From NCBI RefSeq assembly GCF_024256385.1, contig NZ_JAMLFW010000001.1, forward strand, positions 744,001-808,000: a DNA stretch of 64,000 nucleotides. The letters are read 5' to 3'. The DNA is from Anatilimnocola floriformis. Lineage in GTDB: Bacteria > Planctomycetota > Planctomycetia > Pirellulales > Pirellulaceae. Under the pieces are notes generated by a model. It was given only the letters and a program-made list of their open reading frames with translations. It was not told the DNA's origin and searched no databases. Below, one piece after another: positions 26,510-49,437 of the stretch. The translations under genes were made by a program, and so were the position numbers. How positions within the stretch are numbered: position 1 is the first letter of the stretch; every line of letters begins with the position of its first letter.

Positions 26510-26627
26510 GACGCGTGCTTTCACGGAGTGAAAGCCGACAGTGCGACAGCAGTGCTGGCAATAAATTACGGTCTATCGCGAAGTTACGGCCTCTAGGGGT
26601 GCTGCTGAATCTGCCGATGAACTCAGC

Positions 26628-33576: not shown

Positions 33577-33667
33577 GTAGGACGGACGATTGGTCCGTCC
33601 AAGAAGCGGGTACTTCGCCCATCTGACTGCCAGAGCCACTCTAGACGGACCAATGGTCCGTCCTACG
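33577..33667. repeat. GGACCATTGGTCC-family mirror pair, copy 1
   Basis: TAGGACGGACGATTGGTCCG near 33578 and its mirror GACGGACCAATGGTCCGTCC near 33644 flank 35 bases. Each arm is itself palindromic. It separates the convergent bcp and GT-C-like genes. Larger related units occur at 37457-37551 and 48844-48934. Confidence 0.88.
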
Positions 33668-37456: not shown

Positions 37457-37551
37457 TGTAGGACGGACCATTGGTCTGTTCCAAGGCCGGTCTGGCAACC
37501 AGATCGGCGTGGTACCCGATTCTTGGCCGGACCAATGGTCCGGCCTACGCA
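37457..37551. repeat. GGACCATTGGTCC-family composite repeat, copy 2
   Basis: An outer mirror pair (TAGGACGGACCATTGGTC at the left, GGCCGGACCAATGGTCCGGC at the right) encloses CAGATCGGCGTGGTACCCGA. A close match with the same internal segment occurs at 48844-48934. It occupies the space between the small lipoprotein and the Lys-rich membrane protein gene. Confidence 0.88.
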
Positions 37552-40010: not shown

Positions 40011-40105
40011 GGCAGTGAACTAAGTTGAGCGAATTAGTTGAGATGTTATTCTGTGCCTTGCAGCCGCCGCTGTAAAGCAGAGTTCGGGCTTAACGGTCGC
40101 GCGCT

Positions 40106-40432
40106 CTAGGCGCCCTTCGATTCCAGCTTCAGATCGAGATGACAGCAGCCGAAGTTGATTTGAGCTTCGCCCTCGGCTGAGGTTGCGGCTTGCACCTCGG
40201 GATGAATCGAGTACTGAATGAACCGCCCCTGCCGCGTGGGCAGCACGATCTTGCTCCGCCGCAGAATCGAGAGGTGATGAGACACCTTGACGATGTCCTC
40301 AGACAACTGCTCGGCGATCTGACCGACCGTGCACGGCCCCCGAAACAACACTTGCAGAATTCGCAGCCGCTCGGGATCGGCGACGGCTTTGAGCCGCTCG
40401 GCACAGTTTTGAAATTCCTCGGGCTCTTTCAT
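40106..40432 (-). CDS. ArsR-family winged-helix regulator
   Basis: A 108-residue DNA-binding repressor of the ArsR/SmtB type. The winged helix shows Leu-Lys-Ala-Val-Ala-Asp-Pro-Glu-Arg-Leu-Arg-Ile-Leu (helix 2-3), Val-Gly-Gln-Ile-Ala-Glu-Gln-Leu and Val-Ser-His-His-Leu-Ser-Ile-Leu (recognition helix), then a beta-wing with Gly-Arg-Phe-Ile-Gln-Tyr. The metal-binding Cys-Val-Cys motif of classical ArsR is absent; a Cys-Cys-His cluster near the C-terminus (Phe-Gly-Cys-Cys-His) could bind a metal or haem. ATG at 40432. The neighbours give no target; a terminator closes the gene as a single unit. Confidence 0.88.
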   Translation of the reverse strand: MKEPEEFQNCAERLKAVADPERLRILQVLFRGPCTVGQIAEQLSEDIVKVSHHLSILRRSKIVLPTRQGRFIQYSIHPEVQAATSAEGEAQINFGCCHLDLKLESKGA

Positions 40433-40548
40433 CGATTCCCCACTGCCAGCCGATTTCCTGCAGTCAATCTAGCGGTTGCCAGTCTAACCCGGCTTGCAGT
40501 TTCTCTCTATAGCGCTGGGGATTGCTTTGGCGCTAGGGAGCATCAGTA

Positions 40549-40572
40549 GGTCAGGCACTTCAGTGCCTGACC
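40549..40572. repeat. REP element, copy 1 (5' of the RAYT gene)
   Basis: GGTCAGGCACT and AGTGCCTGACC form a perfect 11-base stem around TC. It lies about 75 bases upstream of the RAYT start; identical copies are at 41205-41228 and 47216-47239, and an inverted one at 41270-41294. Confidence 0.93.
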
Positions 40573-40646
40573 AGCGCCAACTCTTGATTTCACATTGCCT
40601 TCGCCTATGCTGCCCAAATCTTCCCTGCCCACCTCTGCTCTGTCTT

Positions 40647-41198
40647 ATGTCGGACTATCGTCGATACTTCGTACGCGGAGGCACGTATTTCTTCACGGTG
40701 GTTACCGAGCGCCGCGCGTCGCTTTTCGCAGATGAAAAAGCTCGCGAAATCCTGGGTAACGTCTTGCGCGAGTCTGTCATTTGGCGGCCGTTCAAAGTCT
40801 TGGCGATTGTCCTGTTGCCCGATCATTTGCATGCCATTTGGCAACTACCAGCGGGCGACGACAAGTACGACATCCGCTGGAATTGGATCAAACGCCAATT
40901 CACCATGCGCTGGCTGCGGACCGGCGGTCGCGAACAGCGTCGTCGTCGATCTCGCATCCGCGAGCGCCGCCGAGGAATCTGGCAGCGTCGGTATTGGGAG
41001 CATTTAATCGACGACGAATATGATCTGGAGAACCATGTCGACTACATGCACTACAACCCCGTCAAGCACGGCTACGTGAAGCGGCCGCGCGACTGGCCAG
41101 AGTCGTCATTTCACCGCTGGTCAATGCTCGGTCACTATGACCTCGATTGGGGAAGGTCGTACATACCCGTGGAACTGCCAGGCAATGCTGGCGAGTAG
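40647..41198 (+). CDS. REP-associated tyrosine transposase (RAYT)
   Basis: A 183-residue Y1-type single-strand nuclease related to IS200/IS605 transposases. The HUH motif is Pro-Asp-His-Leu-His-Ala-Ile-Trp (His at 60 and 62), and the candidate catalytic Tyr is at 133 in Asp-Tyr-Met-His-Tyr-Asn-Pro-Val-Lys-His-Gly. The N-terminal Tyr-Phe-Val-Arg-Gly-Gly-Thr-Tyr-Phe-Phe-Thr-Val is typical of RAYTs. Length is complete, no frameshift. ATG at 40647. The gene is flanked on both sides by identical REP palindromes (40549-40572 and 41205-41228), the standard REP-RAYT arrangement in which the protein is thought to cut and spread its own REPs. The codon composition is like the host. Confidence 0.93.
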   Translation: MSDYRRYFVRGGTYFFTVVTERRASLFADEKAREILGNVLRESVIWRPFKVLAIVLLPDHLHAIWQLPAGDDKYDIRWNWIKRQFTMRWLRTGGREQRRRRSRIRERRRGIWQRRYWEHLIDDEYDLENHVDYMHYNPVKHGYVKRPRDWPESSFHRWSMLGHYDLDWGRSYIPVELPGNAGE

Positions 41199-41204
41199 CG
41201 AGTA

Positions 41205-41296
41205 GGTCAGGCACTTCAGTGCCTGACCGGCGCCGTCGACCGACTCCCTCGTAACCCCCGAGTCCATTTCGTCAGGCACTGAAGTGCCTGACCTAC
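41205..41296. repeat. REP pair in opposite orientation (3' of the RAYT gene)
   Basis: A direct copy of the REP (41205-41228) and an inverted copy (41270-41294, GTCAGGCACTGAAGTGCCTG) face each other with 41 bases between, a BIME-like unit. It sits between the RAYT gene and the convergent outer-membrane protein gene. Confidence 0.92.
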
Positions 41297-41303
41297 AAAT
41301 TTT

Positions 41304-42269
41304 CTAGTACCGCAATATGTAATCCGCCGTAAACCGGTGCTGCATCACACCGCGCTCGTCGGTCAACGGCAATTCATAGGCGAGACCGATTTCGTTGAGC
41401 AGGCTCGGTTTGAATTTGAGGCCCAGCGCACCTGTGACAATATCGGTGCCGGCGACCCCCGTCGCGCCAAAGTTAAAGAAGTCACCACCCTGAATGCCAT
41501 TGAACGCCACGTTCGTGCCGTTGCTCAGCCAGTGATACCAGGTGCCTTCGGCGAAGACATACCAACAGCTGCAGTTCAGCTGTCGATCGACGTGGGCCGA
41601 CCAGTAAAAGACCTGATTCTCGGCCGAGCGATCGACAGGCAGACGAAAGCCAGCCGCCGTGATCAAGTGATTGGCATCGCCAAACAGGGCGCCATAGGTG
41701 GCGAAGACGTTGAACTCGCCGTCGCCGTTTCCTTGCAAGGCTTGCGTGCTGCCGGTGGGAAGTTCGAAGGTCGCTCCCACGCTCAAGATCCGCTGGCAAC
41801 AGCAATCCTTCCACAGATTGTATTTGAGCCCCAGCGACAGATCGGCCCAACCATCATCGAGCGGCGCACCGGCCGACGGAAAGATGAAGCCATCTTTGGT
41901 CGCGATCAACGATAAGTCTTCCGTGAGCGCCGCCCGCAACTGCACCGCGAGCACCTGCAACCGGCTGGCCGGAATTGCGCCTCCGGCCAGCGTGGGAATC
42001 TGGTGATCGATGAAAATGAAGCGGGCTTCGGTCAGCGTCCGCGGGTCCTCGAAAAACACGGGGTTCGTCATCGGGCTGATGAAACCAGCCCACGACGGAT
42101 CGGTCGCCTGAATGAATCCGAGCAGGGCCGGCTGACAACCATCGTCGCAGGCAGTGCAGCCCGAATCGACGCCGTGGTATTCGGCCTCCTGGGCCGCCGC
42201 CATCCCGGTGACGAGCACCGATACCCCGAACATCAACACTGCGACGAGGCCGCTCAATCGAGTAGGCAT
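41304..42269 (-). CDS. Outer-membrane beta-barrel-like protein, hypothetical
   Basis: A 321-residue exported protein. Signal peptide about 1-27 (ending Ala-Ala-Ala-Gln). The mature part starts with two Cys pairs (Gly-Cys-Thr-Ala-Cys and Asp-Gly-Cys), then a series of amphipathic strands with alternating aromatic residues and a terminal Tyr-Ile-Leu-Arg-Tyr, the pattern of an outer-membrane barrel. It also holds a Cys-Cys-Cys run (Asp-Cys-Cys-Cys-Gln-Arg). Planctomycetes have several families of such proteins of unknown function. ATG at 42269 with AGGAG 6 bases upstream. Single gene; the stop is next to the inverted REP. Confidence 0.78.
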   Translation of the reverse strand: MPTRLSGLVAVLMFGVSVLVTGMAAAQEAEYHGVDSGCTACDDGCQPALLGFIQATDPSWAGFISPMTNPVFFEDPRTLTEARFIFIDHQIPTLAGGAIPASRLQVLAVQLRAALTEDLSLIATKDGFIFPSAGAPLDDGWADLSLGLKYNLWKDCCCQRILSVGATFELPTGSTQALQGNGDGEFNVFATYGALFGDANHLITAAGFRLPVDRSAENQVFYWSAHVDRQLNCSCWYVFAEGTWYHWLSNGTNVAFNGIQGGDFFNFGATGVAGTDIVTGALGLKFKPSLLNEIGLAYELPLTDERGVMQHRFTADYILRY

Positions 42270-44864: not shown

Positions 44865-47192
44865 TTACTTCTTCTTCTCCATCGGCGGAGCTTTCACTTC
44901 CAAGTCGAATTCCTTCGGCCGGGGCTCTTCCTGAAAATTCCCCACCTGACCGGTCGCAGTGAAGCGGAACCGGTGGCGACCTTGGCGGAAGTCGTCGGGA
45001 ATCGTGACGGCAAATTCCGTGCTGTTTGCTTCAGCGGCAATCGTCAGTTTCTCGGGCAACTGCAAGCCAGAAATCGGCTGCACTTCGATCTCTACCGGGC
45101 CGGCGAACGACGGCAGGCGTTGCAGCGCCAGGCGCAAATTGAAATTGCTGCCCGGCGGCAACGTGGTCGGCGGCGGCGGATCGATGGTCACCTCAAAACC
45201 AGGCTTCACGATCAACTGTAGACTCCGCTGTAGCGTGACCGTTCGCGGTCCTTGCTTCGCCACGGCAGTGACGTCAATTCGTTCGCTCGCGTCATTGGCC
45301 AGGCTGCGCGAAATGAAGAGAGCGGGAACACTCGCTTCCTCTTTGGTCGCATTCGCGATGCGGGCAAAAACTTGCTTGCGGCCTTGCTTCTCTTCGCCAC
45401 ATTGACCGCCGATCGCGGTGAAGGAAATCGGCTCGGCGAAGCCATTGTCGCGCGTGGTGACGATCGTCGCCGTGGCTTGTTGATAGCGCGGCAAGACCAA
45501 CTCCGGCGCGGCGAGCTCCACGGTGAACGGCACGGCGGGTGTGATCTGCAGCGCGATGCTGCGCGTGCAGGTTGCCGGCAGCCAACGCTGGTTTTCGCGG
45601 AGGGCATGTTTGATGAGATCGACGTTGATCAGTTGCCGATCGACGAGTGGTTGAACGGTGAGGGCGGCGGTGATCTCTTGTTCGCCAACTTTGGTTTTGG
45701 CGAGGACTTGGATGGAAGAGAGACCGAGCGGGGAGTTATTGGCTGCGCGGAGTTTGCAGTCGAGGGAGTTGACGCCTTCGGGGATGGTCGTTGGTTCTAG
45801 AGTGACTCCTGCCGGTGCGTTCACGAGAGAGAGTTCAATGAGGCCGGGGCACTCGGTGCGAGTGACCGCGAAGGGAAGGCGTTGATACGAACACAGAGGC
45901 ACAGAGAGCGCAGAGATTTCGGATTTGAGTTCTAGTTTGGGTTGTTGGGGAGCGATGTCGATGCGGTAGGCGTGCGCGGGACTGCCACTGCCGCTCAGGT
46001 CGCGGACTTGGATGTAATACAAACCGTCGTCGCCAACGTTGAAGTTGAACGCGGCTTCTTCGAGGGCGCCGCCGGGGAGTGTCACGTCGTCCATGCGCTG
46101 CATCTCGCGGCCTGTCCGGTCGAGCAGAATGACTTCTAGATCGGCCGCAGATTGAATCGTCTTGGTCTCGGCCCGCAGCGACAGCTTTTGCCCCTTCGTC
46201 AGATAGAGCGTGAAGCAATCTACATCACCAGCCGGGTTCAGCACTCCTTGCAAGCTTGCAGGAATCGTGGCGACATGCGTGGGACTATCGCGAGTATCGT
46301 TCGGTTCGCTCTCGACGATAGCGGCAATAGCCGAAACCGTCAGCGGCAACCAAGTTGCAACGGAATCGTCTTTTCGCTTCACAGCTGGAAAGAAATTGCC
46401 GAGAGGTTGATCGGCGGCGGTGGTTACTTCCACCTCGCCGTTGATTTCAGGCAGCGCGATCTTCGTCGCGACACCCGGCAGAATCGTCGACGGCAGTGAA
46501 ACGCGCGCGGCCGCGAATTTGCCGATGCGCAGCCAGTATTGCCAGTGAGGCGAACCGAGATAACGACTGTCGCGAACTTCAAGCGTGTAGGTTCCCGCGG
46601 TTTTGAACGTGTGTGAGAACACACAGTCGTAAAAGATGCCCGGCGAGTTGTCCTTTTGCACAATTCGCTTGCCGTGCTCGTCAACGATCGTCAGCAGCGG
46701 ATCGGCGTCGCTGCCGAAACGACTGCAGACGATGTCGAACGAAATCTGCTCGCCCGCCGCTGCCGTGAAGCGAATGCGGTCGACCTCGGCGGCTTGCAGA
46801 TCACCGGCAATCGCAACTGGAAGTTTCTGCAGCGGTTCGTTCGTGGCTTTCGTCGGCGGCAGTTCATCGACGGCGAAGAGTTGCAGATTGCTCAGGCCAT
46901 CTTCGGTTGCGAGCCGCAGACCATAGATTCCCAGTGGGCAATCGGCGGCGACGTTTACTTCCACTTCGGCGCGAGCCAAGGCGCTCGACTGCACCTTGAT
47001 CTGAAAAAACTTCTCCGGCAGCGAAAACCATAGTTGCTGAGCCCGATCGAGTTCGCTGCCGACAATCGTCAGTTTATTGGCCTGGCCGCGAGTGAGCGCC
47101 GGCGGCTCGAGATGCTCGATGAACGGCTCGGCCTGGGCGGTGGAAGCCAAGGCAACGGCCAGCAGCGTGAAGATGAACAACCTCAAGTGCAT
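44865..47192 (-). CDS. Large secreted protein with pre-peptidase C-terminal (PPC)-type repeats
   Basis: A 775-residue exported protein. Signal peptide about 1-20; then repeated beta-sandwich domains of the bacterial pre-peptidase type, with Phe-Asp-Ile-Val-Cys-Ser-Arg, Tyr-Thr-Leu-Glu-Val-Arg-Asp and the acidic Glu-Pro-Asn-Asp/Asp-Val-Asp-Cys-Phe-Thr-Leu pattern of PPC domains. No protease domain is seen. Genes like this often precede DUF1549/DUF1553 genes in planctomycete modules, probably as a binding partner. ATG at 47192 in front of the signal; a longer frame runs through the REP at 47216-47239 and is unlikely. Its stop is 2 bases from the next start. Function unknown. Confidence 0.87.
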   Translation of the reverse strand: MHLRLFIFTLLAVALASTAQAEPFIEHLEPPALTRGQANKLTIVGSELDRAQQLWFSLPEKFFQIKVQSSALARAEVEVNVAADCPLGIYGLRLATEDGLSNLQLFAVDELPPTKATNEPLQKLPVAIAGDLQAAEVDRIRFTAAAGEQISFDIVCSRFGSDADPLLTIVDEHGKRIVQKDNSPGIFYDCVFSHTFKTAGTYTLEVRDSRYLGSPHWQYWLRIGKFAAARVSLPSTILPGVATKIALPEINGEVEVTTAADQPLGNFFPAVKRKDDSVATWLPLTVSAIAAIVESEPNDTRDSPTHVATIPASLQGVLNPAGDVDCFTLYLTKGQKLSLRAETKTIQSAADLEVILLDRTGREMQRMDDVTLPGGALEEAAFNFNVGDDGLYYIQVRDLSGSGSPAHAYRIDIAPQQPKLELKSEISALSVPLCSYQRLPFAVTRTECPGLIELSLVNAPAGVTLEPTTIPEGVNSLDCKLRAANNSPLGLSSIQVLAKTKVGEQEITAALTVQPLVDRQLINVDLIKHALRENQRWLPATCTRSIALQITPAVPFTVELAAPELVLPRYQQATATIVTTRDNGFAEPISFTAIGGQCGEEKQGRKQVFARIANATKEEASVPALFISRSLANDASERIDVTAVAKQGPRTVTLQRSLQLIVKPGFEVTIDPPPPTTLPPGSNFNLRLALQRLPSFAGPVEIEVQPISGLQLPEKLTIAAEANSTEFAVTIPDDFRQGRHRFRFTATGQVGNFQEEPRPKEFDLEVKAPPMEKKK

Positions 47193-47215: not shown

Positions 47216-47239
47216 GGTCAGGCACTTCAGTGCCTGACC
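47216..47239. repeat. REP element, remote copy
   Basis: The same 24-base palindrome as next to the RAYT gene, here between the divergent PPC-type and DUF1501 genes, 23 bases upstream of the former's start codon, so its hairpin would form in the 5' leader. Confidence 0.92.
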
Positions 47240-47439
47240 TACAGCGGGAGGGGAGGTAAGGTGGGGCGAAATTGAGTCTCATCACGAGACTAAAACCGAC
47301 TGCAGATAAATCTTGCGGCCAGCCGATGATTTCGTTAGCGTTAATATATCAAGAGCCAGTAATGGATGTCACGCTGATTCCCGCCTACGATAGTCATCCC
47401 GCCTGAATTCACGATCCCCACCTTCCACAGGATCCCGCC

Positions 47440-48843: not shown

Positions 48844-48934
48844 TGGCCGGACCATTGGTCCGATCAATGCCGCGACTGGAGCTAGATCGGCTTGGTACCC
48901 GATTCTTGGCCGGACCATTGGTCCGGCCTACGCG
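48844..48934. repeat. GGACCATTGGTCC-family composite repeat, copy 3
   Basis: TGGCCGGACCATTGGTCCGA at the left and GGCCGGACCATTGGTCCGGC at the right enclose CTAGATCGGCTTGGTACCCG, which closely matches the unit at 37457-37551. It separates the convergent DUF1501 and Rieske genes. Confidence 0.88.
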
Positions 48935-49322: not shown

Positions 49323-49437
49323 ACAGTCGCCTTTCACTCCGTGAAAGGCGCGTCTTCGCTCGGTCGCGTGTCGAGCCACGTTCCACTCGCCTCGAAAATG
49401 GAAAGACGCGTCCTTTCGCGGAGCGAAAGGCGACTGT
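49323..49437. repeat. CTTTCGCGGAGCGAAAGG-family inverted repeat
   Basis: ACAGTCGCCTTTCACTCCGT at 49323 and its mirror near 49402-49437 (CTTTCGCGGAGCGAAAGGCG) enclose about 45 bases. A related fragment sits at 26515-26535. It fills the space between the Rieske and sialidase-like genes, upstream of the latter. Confidence 0.88.

Follow-up and report, generated by a model that had tools for sequence, protein, structure and literature searches.

A REP-associated tyrosine transposase and its probable family of GTAG-footed palindromes in Anatilimnocola floriformis

The window, a stretch of 64,000 nucleotides of the Anatilimnocola floriformis genome, contains a gene for a REP-associated tyrosine transposase (RAYT), here termed RAYT-A, with GTAG-footed palindromes (REP-A) on both of its sides. 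Together these very probably constitute a REPtron, i.e. a single-copy RAYT (TnpA_REP) with a REP family of its own. This reading is founded on the protein family, the catalytic residues, the GTAG foot, the dispersal of the palindromes and a REP architecture that agrees with RAYT clade. The elements of the system in the window are:

40647..41198, plus strand: RAYT-A gene, REP-associated tyrosine transposase of 183 aa (NF047646, PDB 4ER8, PF01797), with intact HUH motif and Tyr
40546..40571, plus strand: REP-A copy 1, with GTAG foot, 10-bp stem and 2-base loop
41202..41227, plus strand: REP-A copy 2, starting 3 nt past the RAYT-A stop codon
41271..41296, minus strand: REP-A copy 3, inverted relative to copy 2
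47217..47242, minus strand: REP-A copy 4, with GTAG on the minus strand

In the list of open reading frames the RAYT-A frame spans 40494-41198 counted from the first TTG; the ATG at 40647 is the likely start, giving a protein of 183 residues that ends at 41198. Profile searches recovered a match of 177.6 bits to NCBIfam NF047646 (REP-associated tyrosine transposase; cut-off 80) and one of 24.6 bits to the Y1 HUH domain PF01797 (cut-off 23), and the sole PDB match at E ≤ 0.001 was E. coli TnpA_REP (4ER8, E 2.8e-38). The catalytic set is present as His60-Leu-His62, Tyr133 and Asn137; in E. coli TnpA_REP the catalytic residue is Tyr115. RAYT-A thus combines a Y1 HUH core, a His-x-His motif and a single catalytic Tyr with a match above the cut-off of the RAYT model, which bears out the description of a full-length RAYT with intact HUH motif and Tyr in the earlier note made from the letters of this DNA; its further characterization as active-looking is fair, as judged from the sequence. 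The Y1 HUH domain is common to RAYT-A and to ordinary IS200/IS605 insertion sequences, one of which might be present here with the palindromes as its ends by chance. Such an element is most improbable and was rejected, since the IS200 model NF033573 gave 12.7 bits (cut-off 55), none of the six neighbouring genes tested matched a transposon-associated family, and full-length RAYT-A occurs only once in the source genome (the next two matches there are 31% and 25% identical) with palindromes dispersed independently of it. The gene, in other words, does not move with its ends.

The palindrome GGTCAGGCACTTCAGTGCCTGACC is found at 40549-40572 and 41205-41228, inverted at 41271-41292, and in a further copy at 47217-47238. 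A search of the window with its 22-mer, allowing up to 3 mismatches, gave 8 strand-wise matches, which are the same four places read on both strands, and none in 100 dinucleotide shuffles of the window; palindromes on both sides of the RAYT and further copies, as the earlier note had it, are therefore confirmed. Copy 1 ends 75 nt before the RAYT-A start codon, and copies 2 and 3, arranged tail to tail, make up a REPIN-like pair whose outer ends both carry GTAG, so that the gene is flanked by one GTAG-footed copy upstream and an inverted pair downstream. Copy 4 has its loop in the opposite orientation to that of copies 1 to 3; it lies a short way upstream of position 47192, where a PPC-domain gene on the minus strand probably starts. 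The proposal of a REP in a 5' leader at 47216 holds for the presence of the copy (at 47217), but its placement in a leader is conjectural, since the signal-peptide-like start at 47192 is about 25 nt downstream of the copy and yet the copy falls inside a longer GTG-start frame extending to 47285.

Across the source genome the same 22-mer, with up to 3 mismatches, gave 15 forward and 14 reverse matches, and the reversed-pattern control gave none. These correspond to 16 places, which on their better strand differ by 0 bases in six cases, 1 in six, 2 in one and 3 in three; two of the last kind (L014 and L015), which have no GTAG flush with the stem, were left out, giving a count of 14 REP-A copies. 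In all 14 the GTAG lies flush with the stem on at least one side, on one side in seven and on both in the other seven. Six copies are exact over the 22-base core and six others are one base off, five of them through a common TTAA centre. Eleven of the 14 lie between long open reading frames and three at the starts of possibly over-extended ones, i.e. the copies are dispersed and mostly outside genes, although 14 is a low number for a REP family and counts against the REPtron reading. The only close inverted pair among them is that at 41202-41296, and pairs dispersed as units, as expected of REPINs, were not found in this set. The palindrome is accordingly not confined to the RAYT-A locus, and the protein scores with the RAYT model rather than with that of IS200; hence neither of the two findings named beforehand as speaking against the pairing was obtained. 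A mostly intergenic location, and the capacity to fold in RNA, would also suit terminators or regulator sites whose place around RAYT-A is coincidental. This alternative is very improbable: no terminator-like site was recovered at 40100-41600, which covers three REP-A copies (shuffles mean 1.1), so that terminators were rejected, and it leaves unaccounted for the GTAG foot of all 14 copies and the occurrence of other stems with the same foot beside the RAYTs of relatives.

The seven single-foot copies have the centre TTCA on one strand and TGAA on the other, and the six TTAA-centred copies are all double-foot; the remaining double-foot copy, the diverged L016, has the centre TTCA. Double-foot REPs have been described for subclass 2.4, and it was proposed that they could stem from a central deletion between the members of an inverted pair (PMC6006769). 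The seven double-foot REP-A copies, bounded by GTAG and CTAC, resemble these, but belong with a RAYT whose only PDB match is the subclass 2.2 protein 4ER8. We tentatively consider, as a possibility with the balance against it, that REP-A exists in two mobile forms served by one RAYT. One would be the single-foot form, represented by the seven copies with TTCA/TGAA; the other would be a palindrome of 30 bases, symmetric and double-footed, to which the six TTAA copies belong, five of which are identical. On this view the double-foot form would go back to a single deletion, at one point, between the members of a tail-to-tail pair, and would since have multiplied as a replicating unit in its own right. 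As all six TTAA copies are fused at the same point, a single fusion followed by spread is favoured over repeated fusions. At the relative locus L061 an inverted REP pair is spaced by only 4 nt, and this pair is possibly an intermediate toward the double-foot form.

The association of RAYTs with GTAG-footed hairpins extends well beyond this locus. RAYT-A matches were found at E ≤ 1e-3 in 105 and at E < 1e-40 in 48 of 199 genomes of the same family, its own included. Searching for perfect palindromes (arms of at least 9) missed nearly all REPs of the relatives, a foot-plus-stem search recovered them, and words common to both flanks revealed longer bulged hairpins at most of the remaining loci. 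The 30 loci searched (that of RAYT-A and those of 29 relatives) contained 110 GT[AG]G-footed hairpins, where shuffles that keep base composition only had a mean of 2.4; ten of the 30 had none, and L057 and L069 had only distant ones. By eye, 24 of 32 loci without recurrent short hairpins were judged to have longer bulged ones, most with a visible GTAG foot. Among 80 named relatives from several phyla, 28 had perfect GTAG hairpins within 500 nt (60 matches, against 0-5 for each of ten control feet), and in the other 52 no such hairpin was found within this distance, which counts against the REPtron reading. The linked REP-RAYT unit proposed earlier is upheld by the protein family, the flush GTAG feet of all 14 copies, their dispersal and the GTAG hairpins that related RAYTs have of their own.

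The architecture of the REPs is in line with RAYT phylogeny. In a tree built from 52 RAYTs, with long and short hairpin labels assigned by eye, the short-hairpin label (20 rows) requires 2 changes against a shuffled mean of 16.0, and RAYT-A falls in a supported clade (97/96) of 16 rows that all bear this label; within it stems are often common to sister RAYTs (L048/L058, L050/L059, L046/L075). The 52 rows were drawn from 59 by removal of L062, L090, L097 and L098 (internal stops), L100 and L101 (fragments) and the distant L019. With 78 named rows added, RAYT-A is placed in a starred set of 19, made up of the 16 short-hairpin rows, L052, and one row each from Phycisphaeraceae and Methylobacter; this enlarged tree is without L168 and L201 (stops) of the 80 named rows and without L018, L070, L077 and L099 of the 52. 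At the level of genomes, the number of REPs is only partly tied to the presence of a RAYT. By a broad pattern, 25 of the 199 genomes had 10 or more A-type REP matches, and a close RAYT was found in 16 of these 25 versus 32 of the 174 others (Fisher p 5.7e-6 from counts read by hand, a value that overstates the evidence since the genomes are related). The nine REP-rich genomes with no close or only a partial RAYT (G016, G018, G020, G022, G081, G137, G173, G179 and G196) count against the REPtron reading and may reflect loss, assembly gaps, or the action of another RAYT on a similar REP.

Comparison with published systems places RAYT-A close to a known type. E. coli TnpA_REP (4ER8) belongs to subclass 2.2, or RAYT group 2, in the classification of PMC6006769, and its REPtron is matched in the protein family, the 5' GTAG foot of the flanking REPs, the presence of one inverted pair, and the combination of a single gene with dispersed REPs. 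The differences are that REP-A has only 14 copies, that it is a perfect hairpin with a 10-bp stem and a 2-base loop, whereas REPs of subclass 2.2 are for the most part long and contain mispairs (PMC6006769), and that RAYT-A has an insert before IWQ which is absent from E. coli TnpA_REP. Trp94, Gln95 and Arg104 of TnpA_REP are among the GTAG-contacting residues described as well conserved in several subclasses (PMC6006769). RAYT-A keeps Trp112 and Gln113 at the positions of Trp94 and Gln95, but has Asp122 aligned with Arg104, a position that varies among relatives and that we count against the REPtron reading. If the REPtron reading is correct, then by analogy with E. coli TnpA_REP the protein would bind the folded single-stranded REP hairpin, read the GTAG foot as a guide for its action, and cut with Tyr133 and rejoin, so that REPs might spread as single units or inverted pairs, chiefly to intergenic places, with the RAYT gene staying put. 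Cutting, mobilisation and a preference of RAYT-A for REP-A are likewise predicted from this analogy.

The earlier view that such a pair is unusual in this lineage does not survive, given the close RAYTs in 48 of the 199 same-family genomes, nine more NF047646-like genes in the source genome, and the publication in 2013 of GTAG REPs and RAYTs of Planctomycetes (PMC3733652). That paper reports GTAG repeats from the PVC superphylum (Planctomycetes and Verrucomicrobia; R. baltica and O. terrae). For R. baltica it describes several families of REPs, and also "a plethora" of genes for tyrosine transposases that have repeats in their flanks. The systems described there share with the present one the GTAG foot, several REP families per genome and many flanked RAYT genes. 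RAYT-A and REP-A are thus a low-copy pair of an already described sort, one that is frequently encountered in this bacterial family.

The source genome itself is rich in related systems. NF047646 recovered ten genes, three of them over the cut-off, and PF01797 ten, five being common to both sets, so that there are 15 Y1 genes in all. A repeat common to both flanks was found at nine of the ten NF047646 genes, with a GTAG foot visible by eye in six; this shared-flank test, like that of the relatives, was run on the real loci alone, without a shuffle control, and in the flank-repeat test of these genes perfect GTAG hairpins numbered 11 versus 0-3 for each of ten control feet. RAYT-B (L018, G000:C2:1626317-1626769) has flanking hairpins preceded by ATAG, not GTAG (GCCTCGATTGCTTGAGCAATCGAGGC), and L113 (G000:C2:1226505) and L114 (G000:C2:1068038) are frames of about 300 aa with Y1-domain matches and palindromic repeats in their flanks. 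Two further hairpin families occur in the window:

33647-33659, 37529-37541, 48849-48861 and 48912-48924: family D, GGACCATTGGTCC hairpins with a GTAG foot, frequently arranged as inverted pairs
26518-26534, 49331-49347 and 49413-49429: third hairpin family (CTTTCNCTCCGNGAAAG), with no GTAG foot

Hairpins like CTTTCNCTCCGNGAAAG also flank the RAYT-like gene L323 and occur in the L322 locus. Family D (GTAGGNCGGACCATTGGTCCGNC) has 52 forward and 59 reverse matches in the source genome, 1 in G053, the sole other genome of the genus compared, and 0 in the other 197 genomes. The idea that family D is an orphan, or is served by RAYT-A, was dropped because the RAYT gene L117 sits between two D pairs that flank it. 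The largest REP family found in this genome, X1 (GTAGCTGAATTCGCCAGAATTCAG), has 78 forward and 77 reverse matches (control 0); the copy at G000:C1:101467 and about 155 further matches are GTAG-footed and nearly identical, many of them paired in inverted orientation at a distance of about 48 bases. In 30 loci of its roughly 155 copies, neither tblastn with the Y1 proteins of this genome nor a motif search recovered a RAYT beside X1, and X1 words occurred at none of 16 own-genome Y1 loci. Families D and X1 do form dispersed inverted pairs. As both are far larger than REP-A and RAYT-like genes are many, RAYT-A represents a small system in a REP-rich genome.

G053 has two matches to RAYT-A that are 250 kb apart, one of 43 residues (72% identical) and one of 41 (61%); an intact but more distant RAYT (49%) is also present. 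The 43-residue fragment lies between degraded REP-A-like hairpins beginning GTAGGTCAGGCA or ending TTGCCTGAACTAC, and no REP-A within 3 mismatches was found in that genome, a single case that fits a REP population fading once its RAYT is dead. A 12.5-kb query from the window matched G053 as separated stretches with the RAYT at a break, and no clean empty site was recovered there, again a point against the REPtron reading; the leader of the 47217 copy lacks the REP in G053, but is too diverged to prove a clean insertion. The interval 40432-41304 coincides with a break in gene order, the greA/arsR side lying at about 0.61 Mb and the gene on the other flank at about 8.18 Mb of the 9.0-Mb contig of G053. 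The reduction of a RAYT-A-like gene to fragments within the genus, and the 14 copies of REP-A compared with the match counts of families D and X1, raise the alternative that RAYT-A is a relic which once spread REP-A and is now inactive or retained for another role, the copies merely persisting. We regard this as rather unlikely, given the intact frame with its catalytic residues and the limited divergence of the REP-A cores (exact or one base off in the six and six copies noted above).

One such REP-RAYT pair is routine, but its family is well suited to comparison. Across the REPs of many related RAYTs the GTAG foot stays constant and the stems change, which bears on the question of what residues recognise the stem and what residues the foot, and ten RAYT-like genes with REP populations of 14 to about 155 copies are available in one genome. 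The contrast with G053 bears in turn on the fate of REPs whose RAYT has decayed, which seems to be the case there.
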